Of a DNA stretch of 32,529 bases, positions 8,628 through 21,910 are shown piece by piece. A program made the position numbers and the translations under genes. Numbering within the stretch: position 1 is the first letter of the stretch; the number at the start of each line of letters is the position of its first letter. The DNA is taken from positions 1 through 32,529 of the forward strand of contig JAHBVH010000091.1 in the NCBI GenBank assembly GCA_019637645.1, in the 5' to 3' direction. This DNA comes from Caldilineaceae bacterium. Lineage in GTDB: Bacteria > Chloroflexota > Anaerolineae > Caldilineales > Caldilineaceae. The notes beneath the pieces are model-generated. The model was not told the origin of the DNA, made no database searches, and worked only from the letters and a program-made list of their open reading frames with translations.

Positions 8628-8656
8628 ATAGTACCTTTTCTATGAAAAGATGTCAA
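8628..8656 (-). promoter_or_regulatory. Sigma70-type promoter of hemA, inside the end of sirC
   Basis: On the minus strand TTGACA (8656-8651) and TACTAT (8633-8628) are separated by exactly 17 bases. The -35 box lies in the last codons of sirC and the -10 just after its stop. Predicted start is near 8621, giving an ~85-base leader with the repeats described nearby. Confidence 0.75.
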
Positions 8657-9155
8657 GATTTGTGATGAATTGCGCAATCTTATCACGTAGTTGCTTGACC
8701 AATTTGGGATTTTTACCCTGTTGACTGCCGACAGCAACAACAAAACCGCCCTGGCGATGCAGGGCGGGTACATGAAAATTTCCTTCGGCTGGGGCATCGG
8801 CAACGTTGCAAAGCGCACCTGCTTGTCGGGCGTCTTGTGCGATCAACCCATTGACCGCCCGGACATTGGTCGCCGCAAAGACAAGAAAGGCACCCGCTAA
8901 GTCCCCGGGCTGATAGGGCCTGGGCCACCATTCGATCTGTCCGGCTTCCCCCCACGCTTGGAGGATAGGTGTAGCGGTTGGACTGATCACGCGCACTTGA
9001 GCCTGAGCCTCGATCAACCCGCTTACCTTGCGCTCCCCTACTGGGCCTCCACCCACAACCACACACAATTGTTGGTGGAGACCAATCAGGAAAAGCGGGT
9101 AAACCGCACTGCGGCTCTGGTCATCTAAAGCGGGGCGGCTATTCGTGGCTGGCAC
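8640..9155 (-). CDS. sirC: Precorrin-2 dehydrogenase / siroheme synthase N-terminal type
   Basis: NAD-dependent oxidation of precorrin-2 to sirohydrochlorin. The 171-residue protein has an N-terminal strand YPLFLIGLHQQLCVVVGGGP with the Rossmann glycine motif VVVGGGPVGERKV, then FVFAATN-type (FLVFAATNVRAVN) and NVADAPAEGNFHVPA motifs shared with CysG, Met8 and SirC. It is shorter than full SirC or Met8 (~200 or more), lacking most of the C-terminal helical domain, so iron chelation is probably left to SirB. Start is GTG with AAGGTG upstream; it overlaps the end of cobA by 17 bases. Confidence 0.9.
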   Translation of the reverse strand: MPATNSRPALDDQSRSAVYPLFLIGLHQQLCVVVGGGPVGERKVSGLIEAQAQVRVISPTATPILQAWGEAGQIEWWPRPYQPGDLAGAFLVFAATNVRAVNGLIAQDARQAGALCNVADAPAEGNFHVPALHRQGGFVVAVGSQQGKNPKLVKQLRDKIAQFITNLDIFS

Positions 9156-10065
9156 CGGCGCTCACCTTCTCCAAAAGCAACCATTGCAACCGTGGCTGTG
9201 CCATCAAGACAGCCGCTTGGCTTGCCGTGGCTGGCGCAACCAAGTTCGGCAGAGGCACAGGAACCGTAGCTTCTGCTGTGGCCCACTGGGGATCAGCGGG
9301 TGCAGGCTGGAACCAGGCTAACTGATCATGGAGCGCGGCCACTTCGCCGATCACGATGGTTGCCGGCGCTTCAATGGTAGCCGCCGTGATGGCCGCGGCC
9401 AGGTCGGCTAAGGTGGCGCGGGCGACCCGCTGCTGGGCTGTGCTACCCCATTCAATGGCGGCGGCTGGGGTTGCTGGTGATCGCCCAACCTGCAACAGTT
9501 GCTTGACAATCTGCTCAATCTGGCCGACGCCCATGAGGATCACCAGGGTGGGAATCGCGGCCAAGGCTGCCCAGTCCGTCCCGCTGCTCTCCGTACAGCC
9601 ATGGCCGGTGATAACGGCAAAGCTCGTAGCAACGCCGCGGTGTGTTACAGGGATGCCAGCATAAGCAGGCGCGGCCAAGGCCGAGGAGATACCAGGCACA
9701 ATTTCAAAGGGTAAGTTGGCGGCTTGTAGGGCCAGCGCCTCTTCGCCGCCGCGGCCAAAGACAAAGGGGTCGCCCCCTTTTAGGCGCACAACTTGATAAC
9801 CGGCTTGAACCTTTTCGACCAACAACTGGTTGATTTCGGCTTGCGTAGCCACATGATAATGGGGCTGCTTCCCCACAAAAATACATTCAGCGTCGGCGCG
9901 TACTTCGTCGAGGAGCGCGGGTGCCACCAACCGATCATAGATAACCACATCGGCGCGCTGTAAGAGGCGGAGCCCGCGCACGGTAATCAACTCAGCGGAG
10001 CCCGGCCCAGCCCCCACCAAATAGGCTTTGCCTGGTTCGCGCACAACGTTTACCTGCAAATTCAT
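9139..10065 (-). CDS. cobA: Uroporphyrinogen-III C-methyltransferase (SUMT)
   Basis: Adds two methyl groups from SAM to uroporphyrinogen III, giving precorrin-2, the entry to siroheme and B12. Visible motifs are KAYLVGAGPGSAELITVRG near the N-terminus, LKGGDPFVFGRGGEEAL and GIPVTHRGVATSFAVITGH. I place the start at the ATG at 10065 (308 residues), because AGAAGGA lies 7 bases upstream; a TTG two codons earlier would sit almost on top of that site. After the catalytic domain (~250 residues) there is an Ala/Pro-rich tail of about 50 residues without a recognisable domain. It competes with HemE for the product of the HemC-HemD fusion downstream. Confidence 0.95.
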   Translation of the reverse strand: MNLQVNVVREPGKAYLVGAGPGSAELITVRGLRLLQRADVVIYDRLVAPALLDEVRADAECIFVGKQPHYHVATQAEINQLLVEKVQAGYQVVRLKGGDPFVFGRGGEEALALQAANLPFEIVPGISSALAAPAYAGIPVTHRGVATSFAVITGHGCTESSGTDWAALAAIPTLVILMGVGQIEQIVKQLLQVGRSPATPAAAIEWGSTAQQRVARATLADLAAAITAATIEAPATIVIGEVAALHDQLAWFQPAPADPQWATAEATVPVPLPNLVAPATASQAAVLMAQPRLQWLLLEKVSAGASHE

Positions 10066-10077
10066 AGACAATTCCTT

Positions 10078-10842
10078 CTAGCACATCATGGAGGACATAA
10101 TTCGTTCGGCGGCGGCCTGTGCCAACAGCGGATCATAGTCCAGATGATGGGCAAGCTGAATCTCGACGAAAGGATATTGCTGGCGTGCGCTAGCAAAGAG
10201 GCGGGGGAGGTCCGCGCACACATGGCGACCCACATGGAGAAAATAAGGCAGAACGGCGATCCGTTTGACCCCTGTCGCCACCAGTTGCGCAAACGCGGTG
10301 GGAATATCGGGCTGGTTACAGTCCAGATACCCAATCGCTGCTTGACCATAGCCAAAACGGGCGTGGACACGATCGAGAATCCGCAAAATCGGCGCATTCG
10401 CCTCGACCAGCGGTGTGCCATGGGCCACAAATAGCAAGGCTGTTTCGGCACGCTCCGCGGGGCTGCGCAGAGCTTCGACAACCTCTAGCCGTTTACAGGC
10501 TAGATTGTAGAGGGCAAAATGGTCACCGAATGCTTCGGCAATGGTAAAACGGATTCCCCGGTGGTTGGCGGCAATGGTGCGCACGGCGTCACGCAGGTCA
10601 TGGCGCACATATTGGCCTTCAATCAAAAAATAAGGTTGCACAATCACACTAGTCGCCGCTTGGGCAACCACATCGGCAACCGCATCGGTCAGCGTTGGCT
10701 GGCTAAAATTCAGAAAGCCTGCTTCAACTAAAGGCGCCACCCGTTGTTCGCGCATCAAGGCCGCCACCTGAAACATAGCGCGGCCACTATCACTCTGTAG
10801 ACTTCCATGTCCAACCACGATAGCAGCCGTTTTCTTCGCCAT
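10078..10842 (-). CDS. sirB: Sirohydrochlorin chelatase, CbiX/SirB family, two-domain form
   Basis: Inserts Fe2+ (or Co2+ in cobalamin synthesis) into sirohydrochlorin. The 254-residue protein is an internal duplication: domain 1 starts IVVGHGSLQSDSG with His12, domain 2 has LLFVAHGTPLVEAN with His141. A PYFL segment occurs in each half (QPYFLIEGQYVRHDL, LPYFLHVGRHVCADLP). Its place between cysH and cobA beside sulfite reductase argues for ferrochelation to siroheme. The ATG lacks a strong ribosome site. It is followed after 12 bases by cobA, whose ribosome site overlaps this stop codon. Confidence 0.9.
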   Translation of the reverse strand: MAKKTAAIVVGHGSLQSDSGRAMFQVAALMREQRVAPLVEAGFLNFSQPTLTDAVADVVAQAATSVIVQPYFLIEGQYVRHDLRDAVRTIAANHRGIRFTIAEAFGDHFALYNLACKRLEVVEALRSPAERAETALLFVAHGTPLVEANAPILRILDRVHARFGYGQAAIGYLDCNQPDIPTAFAQLVATGVKRIAVLPYFLHVGRHVCADLPRLFASARQQYPFVEIQLAHHLDYDPLLAQAAAERIMSSMMC

Positions 10843-10876: not shown

Positions 10877-11629
10877 TTACCGGGTTACCAGCTCCCAATG
10901 GAGACCACATTCGACTTTGTTGGAACCACGCCAACGCCCCGAGCGGGGATCTTCGCCAGGCTGAACGGCATGGGTGCAAGGCCAGCAACCAATGCTGGGA
11001 TAATTGCGATCATGCAGTTCGTTATAGGGCAGCTCGTGCTCGTGAATATAATTCCAAATATCGGTTTCTTCCCAGTGAATCAATGGCGAAATTTTCACAA
11101 TATTATAGCGTTCATTCCATTGCACCATTGGCACTTCGCGGCGGGTCGAAGCTTGATCATGACGTAGCGCAGAGACCCAAGCTGTGCTGTCCGCTAAGGC
11201 TTGCTTCATGGGCGCGACTTTGCGCAGATGGCAGCAGAGATCCGGGTCATTTTGATAGAGTTTCGGACCATAGCGCTTGTCTTGTTCTTGAAAGGTCAAT
11301 TGGGTGGCAACCCGGCGGAACGGGCGCTGATAATGAGTTTCTAACCGCTCGATCAAGGACAAGGTTTCGGGAAAGAAATAGCCCGTATCAATGTAAAAAA
11401 TATCAACATCGGGCTGCATCTGCAAGGCCAAATCCATCAATACGATCCCGCTCGCGCCAAAGGATGTCCCAATGGTGAGCCCAGAGCCAAAGGTCTGTAT
11501 CGACCAACGCAACAGATCGGTGGTGGCAGCAGCGTCAAAGCGGTTGCTCAGCCGCGTAAAGACGAGCCGTGTCCAGTCCAGAAAGCCCGCGGGGGCAGCA
11601 GAGGCAGATGGCGTCAATGCTACGTTCAT
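10877..11629 (-). CDS. cysH: Thioredoxin-dependent adenylylsulfate (APS) reductase with [4Fe-4S] cluster
   Basis: Reduces APS to sulfite. From the ATG at 11629, which has GGAG 6 bases upstream, the protein has 250 residues. A PP-loop-type nucleotide region (TIGTSFGASGIVLMDLAL) is followed by YIDTGYFFPET. The cluster cysteines are paired as Cys132-Cys133 and Cys215-x2-Cys218, and the catalytic cysteine is Cys241 in KVECGLHWE. The extra cysteines identify the APS-type enzyme rather than the cluster-free PAPS reductase. An 18-bp hairpin fills the gap from sir. The ATP sulfurylase gene is not in the window. Confidence 0.93.
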   Translation of the reverse strand: MNVALTPSASAAPAGFLDWTRLVFTRLSNRFDAAATTDLLRWSIQTFGSGLTIGTSFGASGIVLMDLALQMQPDVDIFYIDTGYFFPETLSLIERLETHYQRPFRRVATQLTFQEQDKRYGPKLYQNDPDLCCHLRKVAPMKQALADSTAWVSALRHDQASTRREVPMVQWNERYNIVKISPLIHWEETDIWNYIHEHELPYNELHDRNYPSIGCWPCTHAVQPGEDPRSGRWRGSNKVECGLHWELVTR

Positions 11630-11650
11630 AACATACTCCGTTACTATGAA

Positions 11651-11692
11651 GTAGGTGGTATGACCCCTTACAACAAGGGCCACACCACCTAC
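11651..11692 (-). promoter_or_regulatory. 18-bp RNA hairpin in the sir-cysH intergenic gap
   Basis: In the minus-strand RNA the 42 bases fold into an unbroken 18-bp stem (15 Watson-Crick and 3 G-U pairs) with a 6-base loop. As DNA the three wobble positions are mismatches, which points to function in the minus-strand transcript. No U-tract follows, so it is more likely a processing or stability element, or a translational control of cysH, than a terminator. Confidence 0.6.
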
Positions 11693-11696
11693 AGAA

Positions 11697-13457
11697 TCAG
11701 GCTAAAGAATGGTCACTCGTTAATTCACGGATTGATTCAATGCCGACGCGTGCAGCCCAATCACCCACGCGTTCACCGGCTTGGCGCGTTTGGCGATAAA
11801 CTTGCAACACGTTGCGAATCGAACCTGCCACTTCATCAGCAGGCACAACGTCTTGATATAGGGTATTGAGGCGGGTTCCTTCCGGGTTGCCGCCCAGGTA
11901 GATGCTATACTTGCCCAAGGTCCGCCCAACCAAGCCAATATCGGCCACATAGGGGCGGGCACAGCCATTGGGGCAGCCGGTCATCCGCACGGTGAATAGT
12001 TCATCAGCCAAGCCCAAGGCGGCTACATCTTGCTCTACCTGATCAATCACATCGGGCAAGAAACGTTCGGCTTCGGTTAGGGCCAGGCCACAGGTGGGCA
12101 GGGCCGGGCAAGCCAACGAATTGCGGCGCACCAGGGTTAGGCTTTCCACCGTGGGAATGCCATATTCCGCCAAGAGTTGCTCGACTTCGGCTTTCTGTTC
12201 CGTTGTAAAGCCACTGAGGAGGATGTTTTGTTGCCCGGTGATGTAGACGCCCGGTTGGAAGCGTTGCACCAAGGCACGCAGACCACTACGCATGCGGAAA
12301 CCACCGTTATCGCGCACCCGGCCATTTTCCACATAAATCCCATAGAACCAATTGCCATCCACTTGCTCGTGCCACCCTAAGTGGTCGTCCACCTCGAGTT
12401 CTGGCATGGCTTGCAATGGGGCAACGGTATAGCCTAGATATTCCTCTACTTTGGCCCGGAACTGATCGATCCCCCACTCGTGAACCAAATATTTCATGCG
12501 AGCGTGTTTGCGATTCTCACGATCGCCATGGTCACGCTGGACAAGGACGATCTTCTCCACAACATCGATCACTTGCTCTACGGGGACATACCCCAGCGGT
12601 TGGGCCAACAACGGGAAGGTCTCGTCATTGTTATGGGTAGCGCCCAGCCCACCACCAACATAGAGATTAAAGCCATGGAGGCGAACCGGTTGGTCCTTGC
12701 GGGTCTGCTCATTCAGATGGGCTTGCCCCCCCTCGACACCATCAAAGAGACCGACCAAGCCGATATCGTTGCTGAAAATATCGGTGCAGTTATCGCCAGG
12801 GAAGGCCAAGGCAATCTTGAACTTGCGGGGCAGATAGGTTTTGCCATAAATCGGCTCATCCACCACAACCTGTTTAGCACCGTTACTGCCCGCGTTACTG
12901 TTCTCTGGGAAGCTCTGGAGCGTCTTCTTACCGTCCTCCCCTTCTAACCAGATCTCGTGATAGGCGGAGGTGTGAGGGGCAAGGTGCTGCGAGATCGCTT
13001 CGGCTGTTTCCTGTAACTGGGCCCGCACGGCATCCCCAAAGGGGGCTGGGCAGGACATGACATTGCGCGAGACATCCCCACAAGCGCCCAGGGTGGTGAT
13101 CAATGCCTCGTTTAACGAACGCAAGGTCCCTTGGAGATCGCCTTTGATGACCCCATGTAACTGGATGCCTTGGCGCGTGGTAAAGCGCAAGTCGCCTTTG
13201 CCAAATTGATCGGCCAGGGCATCTTGGAGCAAATATTGTTGGGGCGTTAATTTGCCACCAGGTAATTTGCTGCGGACCATGAAGCTATAGACGCGATTAT
13301 TGCGGCCACGCACATCACGGTCATGTTGCTGGTAGATGCCATGAAATTTCAAAATTTGCCAAACATCTTCTGAAAAGCTCGGGGTCGGCTCCTGTAGCTC
13401 AATGGCTACCGTGCTCCGTAAACCATGACTCTCAGCTTTGATTGTTTCAACAGACAT
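11697..13457 (-). CDS. sir: Assimilatory sulfite reductase, siroheme/[4Fe-4S] hemoprotein
   Basis: Six-electron reduction of sulfite to sulfide. From the ATG at 13457 (GGGAGGG 8 bases upstream) it has 586 residues with the duplicated nitrite/sulfite reductase fold: RFTTRQGIQLHGV (~91-103) and SCPAPFGDAVRAQ in the first half, and the cluster and siroheme cysteines ACPALPTCGLALTEAERF (Cys450, Cys456) and TGCPNGCARP (Cys495, Cys499). The CysI-like spacing and neighbouring cysH and siroheme genes favour sulfite over nitrite. No flavoprotein subunit (cysJ) is nearby, so ferredoxin is the likely electron donor; that is inference. Confidence 0.93.
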   Translation of the reverse strand: MSVETIKAESHGLRSTVAIELQEPTPSFSEDVWQILKFHGIYQQHDRDVRGRNNRVYSFMVRSKLPGGKLTPQQYLLQDALADQFGKGDLRFTTRQGIQLHGVIKGDLQGTLRSLNEALITTLGACGDVSRNVMSCPAPFGDAVRAQLQETAEAISQHLAPHTSAYHEIWLEGEDGKKTLQSFPENSNAGSNGAKQVVVDEPIYGKTYLPRKFKIALAFPGDNCTDIFSNDIGLVGLFDGVEGGQAHLNEQTRKDQPVRLHGFNLYVGGGLGATHNNDETFPLLAQPLGYVPVEQVIDVVEKIVLVQRDHGDRENRKHARMKYLVHEWGIDQFRAKVEEYLGYTVAPLQAMPELEVDDHLGWHEQVDGNWFYGIYVENGRVRDNGGFRMRSGLRALVQRFQPGVYITGQQNILLSGFTTEQKAEVEQLLAEYGIPTVESLTLVRRNSLACPALPTCGLALTEAERFLPDVIDQVEQDVAALGLADELFTVRMTGCPNGCARPYVADIGLVGRTLGKYSIYLGGNPEGTRLNTLYQDVVPADEVAGSIRNVLQVYRQTRQAGERVGDWAARVGIESIRELTSDHSLA

Positions 13458-13900
13458 TATTTGTTCCCTCCCAAGTAACAAACTCGAATGTGTGGTTTGA
13501 CTGTAAGTTCAGCAGTATAGCACAAGTCGGGTAAAGTAGCGGTACTGGTAGCGACACCTCTCGGCCCTTGTTTGCCACAGCAGTTTTCAGCGGATAGCGC
13601 CACTTTTGATTGATTGTGTCACAGCCCTTGATCCCTTGGATCGGACAAATTCCACCAGCAGTAACCTCTACAGTAGACACAAGGAACCCGATCTAGCCAG
13701 CGTTACTACAGCGCTTTGGGCCTAACGATACTTGGGTTTGGTCGCCGCAAGAACAATGCACAGACAGCATCAGACAAACACCTACGCGCATTTGCGGGTT
13801 GCGACACTGCAACTGACAAAGAGATAAGCTGCTTATCTCGCTTGCAAAAGTATGTGGTTGTTAGCCAGGAAAAGTGAAAGAAGGTGCAAGCAACGTTGCA
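13458..13900 (-). promoter_or_regulatory. Long untranslated leader between the poly-Cys ORF and sir
   Basis: These 443 bases hold no convincing gene. On the minus strand they contain, in order: a 6-bp hairpin starting at the leader stop codon (13884-13901) followed by a pyrimidine-rich stretch with TTCTTTCACTTTT; a 9-bp inverted repeat (13821-13839) followed by TTTGT; a 5-bp hairpin (13630-13642); and an extended -10 motif TGCTATACT (13514-13522), about 57 bases from the sir ATG, which may be a second promoter without a good -35. I recognised no known riboswitch. Confidence 0.45.
13821..13839 (-). terminator. Possible weak terminator or attenuator hairpin
   Basis: GAGATAAGCTGCTTATCTC is a perfect 9-1-9 inverted repeat (effectively a 7-bp stem with a 5-base loop). 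On the minus-strand transcript of the sir leader it is followed by TTTGTC. It lies 62 bases downstream of the poly-Cys ORF stop. Confidence 0.45.
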
Positions 13901-13901
13901 C
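13884..13901 (-). terminator. Hairpin beginning at the stop codon of the poly-Cys leader ORF
   Basis: On the minus strand GTGCAA and TTGCAC form a 6-bp stem around CGTTGC. An alternative fold uses the internal palindrome GCAACGTTGC. The following bases are pyrimidine-rich (CTTCTTTCACTTTTCC). A ribosome paused on the cysteine codons (13907-13933) would sit right against this hairpin. Confidence 0.4.
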
Positions 13902-14074
13902 TAAATACAGGAGCAACAACAGGGACAACAACAGGAAGCGGAGGTGGGGAGAGCAGAAGTAGCGTGGAGTGGGGAAACGCGGATAGCCGTCAACGAGGAC
14001 GGTTGTGAATCTTCTGCGTGTAACAGCAGCCGGTAAGAACGTCTAGCTAGACGTAACAGGCTTTGCGGTTGCAT
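13901..14074 (-). CDS. Poly-cysteine leader peptide ORF upstream of sir-cysH-sirB
   Basis: A 57-codon ORF starting MQPQSLLRLARRSYRLLL and ending CCCPCCCSCI. Seven of nine residues near the end are Cys (codons TGT TGT TGT CCC TGT TGT TGC TCC TGT). The ATG at 14074 has a strong GGAGGT ribosome site 5 bases upstream, and a consensus-like promoter lies about 70 bases before it. The middle is basic then Ser/Pro/Thr-rich, with no known domain. Poly-cysteine small ORFs act as cysteine-responsive attenuators before sulfur genes in mycobacteria; here the ORF precedes the same kind of operon on the same strand, so I infer a similar role. It could instead be a metal-binding peptide. An upstream start at 14119 lacks a ribosome site. 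Confidence 0.65.
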   Translation of the reverse strand: MQPQSLLRLARRSYRLLLHAEDSQPSSLTAIRVSPLHATSALPTSASCCCPCCCSCI

Positions 14075-14143
14075 AGTAACCTCCGATAGCGAATCATTAC
14101 GTAAATCATGGTCAGCCACAAGTGGGCTTTCACTTTACAAGTG

Positions 14144-14172
14144 AGTATAATGGGCTGTACACCGCTTGTCAA
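14144..14172 (-). promoter_or_regulatory. Sigma70-type promoter for the poly-Cys leader and sir operon
   Basis: On the minus strand TTGACA (14172-14167) and TATACT (14149-14144) are 17 bases apart, close to ideal. Predicted start near 14137, about 63 bases before the leader ATG. On the opposite strand TATAAT at 14146-14151 overlaps the -10 box and could serve thrH, but it has no good -35. Confidence 0.75.
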
Positions 14173-14242
14173 ATATAACAAAAGAGTACACTAAGAATCA
14201 TCCGCTCACAAGCTGATAAAACTATAAAGGAAAAAGCGCTTT

Positions 14243-17482: not shown

Positions 17483-20400
17483 TCACCAGCATCGTTGCCG
17501 CAAACGATAGCGATCAATCGCGCCCATGATTCCAAGCAGGAATAATACCCCAAACACGCCGCCGACACGATACCCATCGAGTTCGCCCAAAGCAACTCCT
17601 GTTTCCGGCAGTTGACCAGGGTTCACCTGTGGCGAGGCCGTTGCCATAGGTGCCATGGCTTGCGTTTGGGTGACAACGGCAATCATGCCATTGATCTGTT
17701 GGGCCATCGTTGTCAACGCCAATAATTGGGTATGAGCCACAGTCAGCGTCACTGGCAGGGCCGTTGTAAGCGCGGCGTTGTCGGTCACAGTCATGCTCGT
17801 TGTCACAGTCATGCTCGTTGTCATAGTCGCGGTATCGGTAACAGTGGCGACAGGGGTAACGGCAGCCGTGGCCGTCATTGTGGCCGTCGTAGTGACTATC
17901 GCTGTGGCCGTCACTGTTGACCGCTGACCACGGGTAGTGGTGCGCGTAGGTGCTACTGTCTTTGTAGCCGTCTTGATGGCCGTTTTGGTCGGAGTTGCGG
18001 ATTGTGTCTCGGTGGCCGTTGCGGTTTGGATCGGCACTAACGTAGCCGTGCGACTCGCCGTGGCCGTTTGGGTCGGCTCTAGAGTGGCGGCTACCGTCAT
18101 GGTTTCAGTCGCGGTTGCCGTTGGTGCAGGGGTTGCCGTCCGCGTCGCCGTCCGGGTTGGTTCTGGCGTCGCTGTTTCGGTGGGTGCCTCCGTTGCCGTC
18201 GCGGTAGCCGTTACCGTGGGCGTAGGCACGGGCGTCGCGGTATGCGTTGGCACGGGGGTATCGGTTGGTGTCGGCGTTGGTGCCAACACAATGAGATAGC
18301 CAGCCAAGCTGCCTTCGCCGCTCCTCCCCTGGGCGTCGATCACGGTGCAGGTAATATATTGCAGGCCAGCGCCGGAAAAGTGGACAAGGGCCTCAAAATG
18401 CCCCTTTGCATCCGCCACAACTTGAGCCACTGCGGTTCCGCCTGCCGCCACTTGGATCGTTGCATCCGGTCCGGCCTGGCCGGTGATCAATAGCGGCTCC
18501 CCCACCACAAGTTGGGTGGTTGCCAGCGTACATTGGGGGATAAACGGCGTATTTGTAACGGTAGCCATTGCTGTCCAAGTCGCAGTGACAGTGGTGGTTG
18601 GGATCGGTGTTGACGATGGCGTGCTGGTGGCCGTTGGGGTTGGGGTTGGGCTCGGTATCAACGTTGCGGTTGGCGTCGCGCTGGGCATCATGGTGGCCGT
18701 TGCCGTTGGGGTTGGGCTCGGTGTCAACGTCGCGGTTGGGCTAGGCGTCAGCGTAGCCGTGGAGGTGGGGATGGCAGTCGATGTGGGCGTTACCGTTGGC
18801 GTACTCGTGGGCTGGGGGCGCACAAAAATATAAGAGAGCAGGCGCGCGGGCTGGGTCTGGTCGACCGCCCGGCAAGTAATATATTGAATACCAGGGGTGG
18901 CAAAGGTCAAGGTATAGGTGAAGGTACCTTGGTCGTTAATGGTTGTTGTCGTCAACAAGTGTTCACCAACCAGAATTTCCACATTGGTCCCTGCCACACC
19001 GCTGCCTTCAATCAGAACAGGTTCACCGACCACTTGTTGTGGCTCTGCCACCAAACAGGCAGGGGGGATTGTGGTAGCGGTTGCTGTAACCGTCGCAGTA
19101 GGCGTCACGGTAGGCGTCACGGTAGACGTAGGTACAGGAGTAAATGTAGCGGTCACTGTCGCCGTTTGCGTAGCGCTCGGGATAGAAGTTGCCGTAGCGG
19201 ATGGTGTGGATGTCCATGTAGCGGTTGATGTGGCGGTTGATGTGGACGTTGGTGTCGCAGGTGGGGTGACAGTCGCGGTTGGGCTTGGCGCAGTGGTAGC
19301 TGTGGCTGTAGCTGTCGATGTACGGCTGGCGGTTGGCGTGGCCGTGGGAACAGGCGTGCTTGTAGGTGTCGGGGTTGCGGTCGCTGTGGCCGTTGGTGGT
19401 GCCGTCGCGGTGACTGTCACCGTGTGGGTGGCAGTTTGGGTTGGCACGGGCGTGGCGGTGGGTGCTGGATTGACAATCAGATAGCCCAACGTAGTACCCA
19501 TGACTGGCTGCCCCAGGGGATCCAAGGCCCGCACACTCAGGTATTGCACACCAGGAGTGGCAAATTTCAAGGCAAAGGTATAGATACCAGCGGCGTTCAC
19601 TGCGGTGGTTGTGATCGCCGTTCCTCCCACGATCAGTTCGATAGTTTCGCCTGGCAGCCCTTGACCAGTAACAGTCAGCGCTTCGCCCACTTGGAGAAGT
19701 GGCTTACTCAAGGTAAAGGAAGGAGCCACGCGGGTAGCCGTGGCGGTTGGGGGCACAGTCGCCGTGTTTGTCGCCGTATGTGTCGCCGTATGTGTCACGA
19801 TGGCCGTTGGCGGTTGGGTGGGTGCCACTGTGGCAGTCTCAGTGGCAGTCTCAGGGACAGTCTCAGTAGCCGTCGGCACAGGGGTCTCGGTTGGCGAATC
19901 GGTTGGCGAATGGGTGGGTGAAGCCGTGACGGTCACGGTCTGCGTATCGGTGGGTGCAGGGGTGTTCGTAGCGGTCGGTTGGGCAGTGTCCGTAGGTACG
20001 ACGGTAGCAGTGGCTGTTGATTCAGATGTATTCGTAGCGGTTGGCGCGGCTGAATTGGTGACGGTTGGGTCGGGCAAGGCCACACTCATCGTCACAACGG
20101 TGGCAGCCGTCACCGCGGTGGACGCCGTTACCGTAGCCGTTACACTGACAGGAACAGCTGCCGTCACGGGCACGGTCACAACGGTCACGGTCATGGTTAC
20201 CGGGGCTGTTGCGACGGTAGCCGACGCGGTTGGCCGGGCGGTTGCGGTATCGGTGGCCGTTGGTGCTGGCGTGGCTGTATTCGCTACGGTCGGCGTAGTC
20301 GTTATGGTTTCGGTCGCGGTTGATGTCGCGGTGTTGGTCTCTGTGGGTGTCGAAGTCGCCGTTTCGGTCGCGGTTTCAGTCGGTGTCGCGGTTGCTGTTT

Positions 20401-21910
20401 CGGTGGCCGTGGCGGTTACGGTGGGCGTGGCGGTTGGCAACGGATTGACGACCACATAGGCAAAGGTACGACCGACCACAACTGCGCCCGCCTCGTCAAC
20501 GGCGCGTACGCCAATGTACTGAATGCCAGGTGAGGCAAATTGTAGGGCGAAGCCATAACGGCCCGTGGACGGGACAACCGTACTGGTCATAACATTGCCA
20601 CCCACAATCAACTCAATCACTTCACCGGGTGTCCCTTGGCCGTGGAGCTGAACGGTCTCACCAACCAGGGGGGCGCTCTGCGAGAGGGTAAAGGCGGGTG
20701 GGATGCGCGTCGCCGTGGCTGTGACGGTTGGCGCGGGCAAGGCCGTAGCCGTTGGGATGATCGCCGGTACGGCGACCGCGACCTTCCAAGGGGCGAGGGC
20801 GGCAATGGTTGAGCCGTCGCTAACAATCGACTGGACATTGATCGTATAATTCCCTGGCTCGGCCAAGGCGGTGTTCACTTGCCAAGTTCCATCGGCTTTG
20901 ATCATGGTACTGGCAATCACTTGTTGATCCAGCAACACTTGTAAAAGCGCACCGGCTTGGCCGTTCCCGGTCAAGGTAACGGTGCCGGTTGGGGCCTCAC
21001 TGGCAAAGAGCAGATCCACCAAAGCCGGTGGGATCGGGGTTGGTGGATTCACGGGCAGCGGCGTTGCGGTCGGTGCAGCCGTCGGCAAGGGGGTTGGCGT
21101 AGGTAATGCCAAGACGACAGCATTCATCGGTATGGTTACCGCGGCTTGCTCACCAGTTGGCAATAAAGCATTTACCCCAATTTCATACGCAGTGGGGTCT
21201 TCCAACTGGGTTACCATCGACCAAGTCCCTGTACTATCGACCGTGGTTGTATTGATCACACTTTGGTTCGCCATTAGTTGGGCAACGACCGCGGGCTGCC
21301 CTACCCCCTTCATCCGCACAACACTGCGCTGGTCGGCAAAGTCAAAGACCAATGCCTCTACCACCAAAGGGGGAAGCGGCGTTGGCGTGGCGGTCAACGT
21401 CGGCCAGGGCGTATCGGTGGGCGTGGGCGTATCTGGTTCGACGAGCGTCGGCGTGGCCGTTGGCACGGTAATTGACAACGTGACAGGCTGGGCTGCGGCC
21501 AGCACATTGCCCGCGGCGTCCAGAGTTTGCACCAACAACGCATAGGTACCACTAGCCGGAAAGGTGATCTCCGTGCGCCACTGACCTTCAGGATCAGCGG
21601 TAACCGTGGCAATCGCTTCGCCATTGCGCAAGAGCTGAATCGGTGCATTGGGCGCGCCAGCCCCCACGACCATCAGCTGCTGGGCCACTAATGGTCGCGC
21701 GCCAAGGGGAGAGATGATCATTGGCCGTAGGACAGCCAGATCAAAGGTATAGGTGGGCACGGGCGTCACAATCGCGGCCAACCCATTGTCCAAATTTTGA
21801 CACCCACGTAGCGCCAGAAAAAAGATAAAGAAGAGCATTAGGGCAAGCAGTGTGATGAATTTCGCAAGATCAAACCGCTGGATTGCGTTGGGTGCTTTGG
21901 GACTGGGCAT
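17483..21910 (-). CDS. Giant surface protein with Ig-like modules, Pro/Thr-rich linkers and LPETG anchor
   Basis: 1475 residues. The N-terminus has a membrane/signal segment (~18-34) and a nearby cysteine (Cys37), which is not a good lipobox. Seven beta-rich Ig-like modules follow at about 57-150, 183-267, 297-380, 405-490, 728-808, 948-1027 and 1123-1205. Modules 4 to 7 share a VGE...GQG/GSG...LIVGG core and an ATPGIQYI segment. Between them are linkers of PTATPT type; those at ~491-728 and ~1206-1433 exceed 200 residues. The end has LPETG (1434-1438), a hydrophobic stretch and a basic tail, the layout of a sortase signal. Likely a cell-wall or envelope stalk; ligand unknown. AGGTGG lies 8 bases before the ATG, 3 bases after the upstream gene. 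Confidence 0.88.
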   Translation of the reverse strand: MPSPKAPNAIQRFDLAKFITLLALMLFFIFFLALRGCQNLDNGLAAIVTPVPTYTFDLAVLRPMIISPLGARPLVAQQLMVVGAGAPNAPIQLLRNGEAIATVTADPEGQWRTEITFPASGTYALLVQTLDAAGNVLAAAQPVTLSITVPTATPTLVEPDTPTPTDTPWPTLTATPTPLPPLVVEALVFDFADQRSVVRMKGVGQPAVVAQLMANQSVINTTTVDSTGTWSMVTQLEDPTAYEIGVNALLPTGEQAAVTIPMNAVVLALPTPTPLPTAAPTATPLPVNPPTPIPPALVDLLFASEAPTGTVTLTGNGQAGALLQVLLDQQVIASTMIKADGTWQVNTALAEPGNYTINVQSIVSDGSTIAALAPWKVAVAVPAIIPTATALPAPTVTATATRIPPAFTLSQSAPLVGETVQLHGQGTPGEVIELIVGGNVMTSTVVPSTGRYGFALQFASPGIQYIGVRAVDEAGAVVVGRTFAYVVVNPLPTATPTVTATATETATATPTETATETATSTPTETNTATSTATETITTTPTVANTATPAPTATDTATARPTASATVATAPVTMTVTVVTVPVTAAVPVSVTATVTASTAVTAATVVTMSVALPDPTVTNSAAPTATNTSESTATATVVPTDTAQPTATNTPAPTDTQTVTVTASPTHSPTDSPTETPVPTATETVPETATETATVAPTQPPTAIVTHTATHTATNTATVPPTATATRVAPSFTLSKPLLQVGEALTVTGQGLPGETIELIVGGTAITTTAVNAAGIYTFALKFATPGVQYLSVRALDPLGQPVMGTTLGYLIVNPAPTATPVPTQTATHTVTVTATAPPTATATATPTPTSTPVPTATPTASRTSTATATATTAPSPTATVTPPATPTSTSTATSTATWTSTPSATATSIPSATQTATVTATFTPVPTSTVTPTVTPTATVTATATTIPPACLVAEPQQVVGEPVLIEGSGVAGTNVEILVGEHLLTTTTINDQGTFTYTLTFATPGIQYITCRAVDQTQPARLLSYIFVRPQPTSTPTVTPTSTAIPTSTATLTPSPTATLTPSPTPTATATMMPSATPTATLIPSPTPTPTATSTPSSTPIPTTTVTATWTAMATVTNTPFIPQCTLATTQLVVGEPLLITGQAGPDATIQVAAGGTAVAQVVADAKGHFEALVHFSGAGLQYITCTVIDAQGRSGEGSLAGYLIVLAPTPTPTDTPVPTHTATPVPTPTVTATATATEAPTETATPEPTRTATRTATPAPTATATETMTVAATLEPTQTATASRTATLVPIQTATATETQSATPTKTAIKTATKTVAPTRTTTRGQRSTVTATAIVTTTATMTATAAVTPVATVTDTATMTTSMTVTTSMTVTDNAALTTALPVTLTVAHTQLLALTTMAQQINGMIAVVTQTQAMAPMATASPQVNPGQLPETGVALGELDGYRVGGVFGVLFLLGIMGAIDRYRLRQRCW

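Follow-up and report, generated by a model that had tools for sequence, protein, structure and literature searches.

The 32.5-kb stretch of DNA analysed here (‘the window’) carries on its minus strand an operon that begins with sir, the gene for an assimilatory sulfite reductase hemoprotein, and runs on through cysH, a sirohydrochlorin chelatase gene, cobA and sirC, all five being named by NCBIfam (Table 1). The original prediction had this gene order right but not its extent, as the run continues past sirC with same-strand ORFs that we read, in a naming of our own, as hemA to hemH. Elsewhere in the window (17483-21910, minus strand) sits a gene for a 1475-residue repeat protein rich in Thr, Pro and Ala, with what we take to be an LPETG-like end.

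Ahead of sir lie all of the elements that had been predicted there, their coordinates now rechecked: a sigma-70-type promoter, a Shine-Dalgarno site, a leader ORF (hereafter an upstream ORF, or uORF) of 57 codons that ends in CCCPCCCSCI, such that seven of its last ten codons are for Cys, and two hairpins within the 443 nt that separate its stop codon from the ATG of sir. Judged from the promoter’s position, transcription is predicted to start ~63 nt upstream of the leader ATG; a GTG at 14119 offers an alternative in-frame start, and hence a longer version of the ORF.

In 2000 dinucleotide-preserving shuffles of the 700-nt leader, ORFs with at least four Cys in ten codons arose in 14%, with at least five in 1.5% and with at least six in none, against seven in the window, where the leader ORF is also the sole place, in any of the six frames, to reach six. 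The promoter scan (2 sites in 1.6 kb, where shuffles give 1.3) and the fold of the 506-nt segment that runs from the uORF end into sir (equalled by 87 of 100 shuffles) both sit near shuffle level, and neither alone constitutes evidence. A protein search with the leader peptide returned no relative, and an Rfam search of the window gave no match at gathering score, T-boxes and other riboswitches included.

Table 1. Features of the sir operon and its leader, in window coordinates
Feature	Position	Strand	Basis or detail
sirC / CysG N-terminal-type precorrin-2 dehydrogenase	8640-9155	minus	TIGR01470, E 4.9e-30, above cut-off
cobA/sumT, uroporphyrinogen-III C-methyltransferase	9139-10071	minus	NF004790, E 7.4e-94, above cut-off
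CbiX/SirB/CfbA-type sirohydrochlorin chelatase	10078-10842	minus	NF033198, E 1.7e-29, below curated cut-off
cysH, phosphoadenylyl-sulfate reductase	10877-11683	minus	NF002537, E 1.2e-77, above cut-off
sir, first operon gene (ATG 13457)	11697-13457	minus	NF010029, E 2.7e-215, above cut-off
Proximal extended -10, TGCTATACT	13522-13514	minus	-65 relative to sir; good -35 absent
Second hairpin, GAGATAAG-CAG-CTTATCTC	13839-13821	minus	MFE fold
6-bp hairpin directly past uORF stop	13901-13884	minus	-6.5 kcal/mol; z -2.4
Cys codons 48-50, 52-54, 56 (TGT TGT TGT CCC TGT TGT TGC TCC TGT)	13933-13907	minus	sequence
Candidate Rho-utilisation (rut) site, C-rich, G-poor	14010-13933	minus	C minus G = 26 in 78 nt; ends at first Cys codon
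Leader ORF, 57 codons, MQPQS...SASCCCPCCCSCI	14074-13901	minus	ATG 14074; stop 13903-13901
Shine-Dalgarno GGAGGT of leader ORF	14084-14079	minus	sequence; 4 nt 5' of ATG
Sigma-70-type promoter TTGACA-N17-TATACT	14172-14144	minus	11/12 consensus positions

Cysteine-rich uORFs before sir in related genomes

Relatives were sought in a class sample of 396 genomes, drawn evenly from a larger group and reached via G001 (MAG Chloroflexi bacterium CFX10), of which 16 carry sir at E <= 1e-100. Among the matches listed in an earlier contig scan, the best sir relative was 52% identical. The order of the best match, G334, is represented by 46 genomes, five of them with a sir that is 55-70% identical; G334 itself has the gene order of the window (sir-cysH-cbiX-cobA-sirC-hemA-hemCD-hemB-hemQ-hemE) up to the end of its contig, and the two have in common a divergent thrH-like gene upstream of sir. 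From the sir match, the gene order and this neighbour, we infer that the window belongs to the same order.

Conservation in close relatives had been set beforehand as a check on the original prediction, and it is found: all five sir-bearing genomes among the 46 searched in this nearest order have a Cys-rich uORF before sir. The four nearest share a promoter, a Shine-Dalgarno-like site (picked out by eye 5' of the uORF start), a uORF of 49-52 codons (counted from starts picked by eye) and Cys codons clustered at its end. Four of the five relatives have, 5' of the uORF, a promoter with 10-11 of the 12 consensus positions, and the window’s proximal extended -10 recurs in none, so that transcription solely from the latter is not favoured. 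The same evidence bears on the idea that the uORF is a functionless chance ORF, with sir driven from the proximal element: this has in its favour that TGCTATACT does lie 65 nt before sir, but with no shuffle of 2000 reproducing the Cys run, and with the uORF rather than the -10 recurring in relatives, we regard it as so unlikely as to be nearly negligible.

Across the class, 18 distinct sir loci were available (16 from the class search and two more from the order search). A script asking for at least four Cys in ten codons, with a start codon, within 700 nt of sir, returned a Cys-rich uORF at 11 of these 18 as against 4 of 50 other loci from a phylum sample (Fisher p 2e-5, kinship ignored). 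On inspection the class count became 13 of 18: L097 was dropped, its Cys run being judged part of another coding sequence, and L093, L094 and L095 were added by eye (three close Cys or a looser cluster, with a terminator after each), leaving five without (L089, L096, L097, L098, L099). The 50 comparison loci derive from a survey in which 55 of 400 genomes had sir, less three already seen and two partial matches (G605, G603); six have less than 700 nt upstream and some possibly belong to the same class, and for none of the four that pass the Cys threshold (L114, L120, L139, L144) is a terminator listed. A further uORF of the kind precedes sir at L085, in a genome (G005) whose class is not given, and seven Chloroflexota-type loci (L082, L083, L084, L027, L031, L065, L036) have none within 800 nt. 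Cys-rich short open frames are also seen before sir in a Gemmatimonadetes MAG (L015, -136) and a Chthoniobacteraceae MAG (L074, -263).

Beyond the Cys tract, the peptides of these relatives show no resemblance by eye, which is what would be expected of a cis-acting sensor. The uORF might instead encode a small functional protein, for instance one that handles metals or thiols: its translation signals are good, and CxC and CC motifs are potential metal ligands. Such a protein is, in our estimation, very unlikely, given that the search with the leader peptide found no relative, that the peptides look unrelated outside the tract, and that at other class loci a terminator follows the uORF.

Two leader designs and a second sulfur gene

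Two observations go beyond the original prediction: related genomes have leaders of this kind with intrinsic terminators, and a sulfurtransferase gene has the same kind of leader. In the first design, an intrinsic terminator starts 23-51 nt past the uORF stop, in 13 of 13 uORFs by definition, as the terminator is the grouping feature; these uORFs belong to ten loci (L081, L088, L091, L092, L093, L094, L095, L100, L085 and the upstream uORF of L090). At L081, L091 and L095 two uORF-plus-terminator units stand in tandem before one sir; L092 looks tandem-like by eye, its second uORF being below threshold. The second design, without a terminator, comprises at sir the leaders of the window, L086, L087, L101, L102 and the second uORF of L090, with 214-443 nt from uORF stop to sir, and with eight sulfurtransferase leaders (see below) amounts to 14, only one of which has a terminator under the common threshold, a weak candidate 198 nt off (L101). 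The 13 class loci with a uORF thus divide into eight of terminator type, four without, and L090, which has both; G341 is alone in offering the two designs within one genome, one after the other ahead of a single sir. Inspection of L090 (-440 to -300) by eye shows a long hairpin, made up of the second uORF and bases past its stop, with the Cys codons in its loop (GGCCAGCCAT...ATGGCTGGCC, CCGCTATCT...AGATAGCGG).

Classical transcription attenuation would require that one of the window’s two hairpins act as an intrinsic terminator. The terminators after the Cys uORFs of related genomes (13 uORFs, ten loci) lend this some weight, as does the post-stop hairpin, which fits a loose terminator pattern and whose 3' arm can alternatively pair with 13846-13840 in the MFE fold. 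However, at the stricter threshold passed by the terminator-type uORFs there is no terminator in the window leader, nor in 12 of the 13 other leaders of its design; the loose scan finds two in the window leader against 1.8 in shuffles; and equilibrium folding with a masked ribosome gave no switch even in nine terminator-type leaders, where P(terminator) is 0.85-0.97 in every state. We consider an intrinsic terminator in the window leader improbable. A possible antiterminator can be made out by eye at L081 and L091.

The second gene came from a search independent of sir, in 11 genomes, for the Cys-codon pattern TGTTGYTGYN{0,9}TGYTGY; 30 returned loci and 48 further regions were examined, leaving out out-of-frame matches and several in-frame ones (sister-genome copies, contig ends). 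A backward-read control is rich in matches too, so the pattern alone says little. In G341, a similar Cys uORF precedes the gene for a rhodanese-type protein (NF008557, 3-mercaptopyruvate sulfurtransferase, E 6.4e-38, below cut-off), and among the free short ORFs from the pattern, a C minus G of at least 20 occurs only before sir (G407) and this sulfurtransferase (G341). The protein is present in 45 of the 46 genomes of the order; among the 30 best-scoring order loci, eight have a Cys uORF before the gene and 22 do not. The uORFs typically end in CCxCLCS or CCTCSCI, near to the CCCSCI of the window.

A second pattern, built from these uORF ends and run over the 46 order genomes, gave 18 matches. 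uORFs with an 11/12 promoter stand before sir (G407) and sulfurtransferase (G175, G406, G407, G408); in G394, a sulfurtransferase leader lies at the end of its contig, and another contig holds an all but identical uORF and promoter with no gene visible downstream. Apart from this gene-less contig, uORFs of the kind occur only at sir and sulfurtransferase, the remaining matches resembling unrelated frames. A promoter matching 10-12 of 12 positions (TTGACA-17/18-TATAAT) precedes 12 of the 14 no-terminator leaders, a count that has no shuffle control; only L280, where the contig ends, and the second uORF of L090, itself preceded by another uORF, depart from this. At nine cysE loci (eight above cut-off) there is no 5-in-10 Cys run, and 4-of-10 matches occur in three only, as they do in three only of nine ATP-sulfurylase leaders. 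By eye, the sulfurtransferase leaders L277-L281 have in common a GCCGG..CCGGC-like hairpin at the uORF stop and a further GCCGGC-like stretch ~50 nt on, such that two alternative pairings are possible.

A C-rich, G-poor stretch and the output of the leader

The C-rich, G-poor stretch that runs up to the first Cys codon in the window scores higher than any other of the 2846 windows taken from both strands of the 1.5 kb before sir; in the whole 32.5 kb, C minus G reaches at least 24 in 12 other stretches, nine of them within the repetitive gene at 17483-21910. Cys codons (TGT, TGC) themselves give no C excess over G. Near the Cys codons, the 78-nt maximum of C minus G is 13-29 in the 14 no-terminator leaders versus -2 to 11 in the 13 terminator-type ones (Mann-Whitney p 1e-5), and in G341 it is -2 with the terminator and 22 without. 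Against a control taken from the same upstream region, on both strands and matched for the search band, the combined Fisher p is 2e-8 for the 14 and 0.48 for nine of the 13, although the no-terminator leaders all come from one order and so these tests are not independent.

A C>G stretch ending at the Cys codons, with no good terminator, is the anatomy expected of a ribosome-covered Rho site, and the stretch resembles a place where Rho would load unless stalled ribosomes kept it off. A rho gene was found in all 15 relatives searched, 13 above cut-off. Counting against a cysteine sensor with Rho as its output are the absence, by our count, of such a uORF from 5 of the 18 sir loci of the class and from 22 of the 30 sulfurtransferase loci, the equally C-rich stretches elsewhere in the window, and the modest C>G in sulfurtransferase leaders L278, L279, L280 and L283 (band-matched p 0.07-0.19). 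As a separate observation, eight of nine searched no-terminator genomes (G334, G341, G394, G403, G406, G407, G408, G175) have two rho-like genes, one above the family cut-off and a shorter one below it; the ninth, G410, has only the shorter, below-cut-off gene, and six terminator-type genomes (G323, G001, G112, G237, G005, G381) have one rho-like gene.

Nine of the 14 no-terminator leaders have a hairpin that starts within 3 nt of the uORF stop, where shuffles would give 3.9 (p 0.003, kinship ignored); one idea is that it may serve as a polymerase pause, ‘holding’ ribosome and polymerase together.

The main rival to Rho as the output is sequestration of the sir ribosome site: the CU-rich Cys tract would pair with the sir Shine-Dalgarno sequence ~450 nt downstream and block translation, and a stalled ribosome would free the site. 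In the predicted ensemble for the window, the pairing probability of the sir Shine-Dalgarno with the Cys tract, at -464 to -476, reaches 0.96, and the mean pairing of the site falls from 0.76 to 0.51 on removing the uORF; for L086 the pairing reaches 0.88, with means of 0.54 and 0.52. Ten of the 14 tracts contain CCTCC, where shuffles predict 5.5; an anti-Shine-Dalgarno partner, too, would be expected to be C-rich. Translational attenuation is the mode attributed to cysteine genes of M. smegmatis in an excerpt of PMC13236596. As a dedicated anti-Shine-Dalgarno, however, the tract fares less well: duplex energies are about those of shuffles (p 0.70 for the window, 0.54 for L086, 0.58 for L087), tracts pair equally with the ribosome sites of other genomes (five genomes), 7-49% of leader windows pair as well across 14 leaders (with the Shine-Dalgarno of L090 and L285 misplaced by the script), and the pairing is not predicted for L087. 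We think translational attenuation rather unlikely. The original prediction had offered ‘folding or Rho access’ as the output; the sequence comparisons lean to Rho, which we tentatively favour.

A proposed mechanism and its place among known leaders

Taken together, these comparisons bear out the earlier reading of a cysteine-sensing attenuator. The leader is a real and recurrent cysteine-codon leader, very probably with a regulatory role, and we hold it highly likely that it is a cysteine sensor in cis, a cysteine-responsive leader-peptide attenuator. As similar leaders stand before two kinds of sulfur gene in relatives, it is probably the ribosome itself that senses cysteine shortage and thereby turns the genes on.

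We suggest that the promoter would give rise to an RNA with a ~680 nt leader, from which the 57-codon ORF would be translated. With ample Cys-tRNA, ribosomes would read straight through all seven Cys codons and come off at the stop next to them; the C-rich, G-poor RNA on the 5' side of these codons would then lie bare, so that Rho could load and end transcription within the extended untranslated region that leads up to sir. Under cysteine shortage, a ribosome held up at the Cys codons, together with those queuing at its back, would cover the Rho site, and the operon would be transcribed. On this whole chain, from cysteine sensing to Rho as the output, we are evenly divided.

Polycysteine leaderless short ORFs of mycobacteria were reportedly described by Canestrari et al. 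in 2020 (doi 10.1111/mmi.14498). As excerpted, three papers mention mycobacterial cysteine attenuators (PMC13236596, PMC9031893, PMC9094748), and these resemble the leader of the window in having consecutive Cys codons in a short uORF before cysteine-metabolism or sulfur genes, and their response to cysteine through ribosome pausing is the one proposed here for the window; they are leaderless, are described as acting on translation and belong to another phylum. By its sequence the window leader is not leaderless, having a Shine-Dalgarno site and a predicted 63 nt 5' UTR, and it further differs in its 57-codon ORF, 443-nt spacer and C>G stretch. A 2005 study (PMC1262725) described, in the portion available, candidate Cys leader peptides in Mycobacterium, Propionibacterium and Bifidobacterium, which lie ahead of cys operons or cbs and have their Cys codons clustered close to the stop; its authors, who saw no terminators, weakly suggested Rho. 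Those leaders are of Actinobacteria and have unconserved pyrimidine motifs between uORF and gene, whereas in leaders of the window type the C>G stretch is recurrent and sits inside the uORF, ahead of the Cys codons. In Rhodobacterales, cysS is preceded by uORFC-8-2 (PMC8632094, as excerpted), which combines Cys codons with an intrinsic terminator and in this resembles the terminator-type leaders of the class, but has two Cys codons, a structured motif and a home in another phylum; the window leader precedes sir rather than cysS, and has no good terminator with a terminal U-run.

As in trp-type attenuation, the codons of the window leader match the product of the pathway (seven Cys codons before sir-cysH), though between leader ORF and gene there is only a loose match to an intrinsic terminator; as in leader ORFs that work through Rho, there is a C-rich, G-poor candidate rut site that stalled or queued ribosomes could cover. 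The tnaC leader of E. coli senses tryptophan excess through an arrest peptide. toiL of E. coli likewise links a uORF to Rho, sensing antibiotics and acting first via a ribosome site (PMC12121999, as excerpted). In both, uORF translation governs Rho-dependent termination downstream; here, starvation for an amino acid would be sensed at the codons for that amino acid.

Amino-acid leader peptides are recorded for Proteobacteria and Actinobacteria, with Firmicutes added, in the part of PMC2965389 available. Our search of open-licence papers found no Cys leaders in Chloroflexota, in keeping with the original prediction’s ‘undescribed’, and a term look-up in excerpts of two Chloroflexota sulfur papers (PMC11005417, PMC4959651) gave nothing of the kind. 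The first of these concerns strain ZRK33, one of the cultured Chloroflexota that have Sir and a thiosulfate sulfurtransferase. As far as this search extends, Cys-codon leaders are known from Actinobacteria and Rhodobacterales, and Chloroflexota is a third phylum.

More tentatively, and with somewhat more doubt than conviction, we propose a two-locus cysteine ‘ribulon’ in one order of Chloroflexota, in which each Cys leader ORF would contain a site for Rho loading that stalled and queued ribosomes would shield. These leaders would exist within the class beside, and perhaps in place of, attenuators with intrinsic terminators. The leaders form a natural series (one uORF with a terminator, two such in tandem, a terminator-type followed by a no-terminator uORF, and a C>G stretch but no terminator), a setting in which to study how attenuators can change output with the sensor preserved; and, in a group represented in this analysis mostly by unnamed or metagenome-derived genomes, Cys leaders predict how sulfur genes may be regulated.
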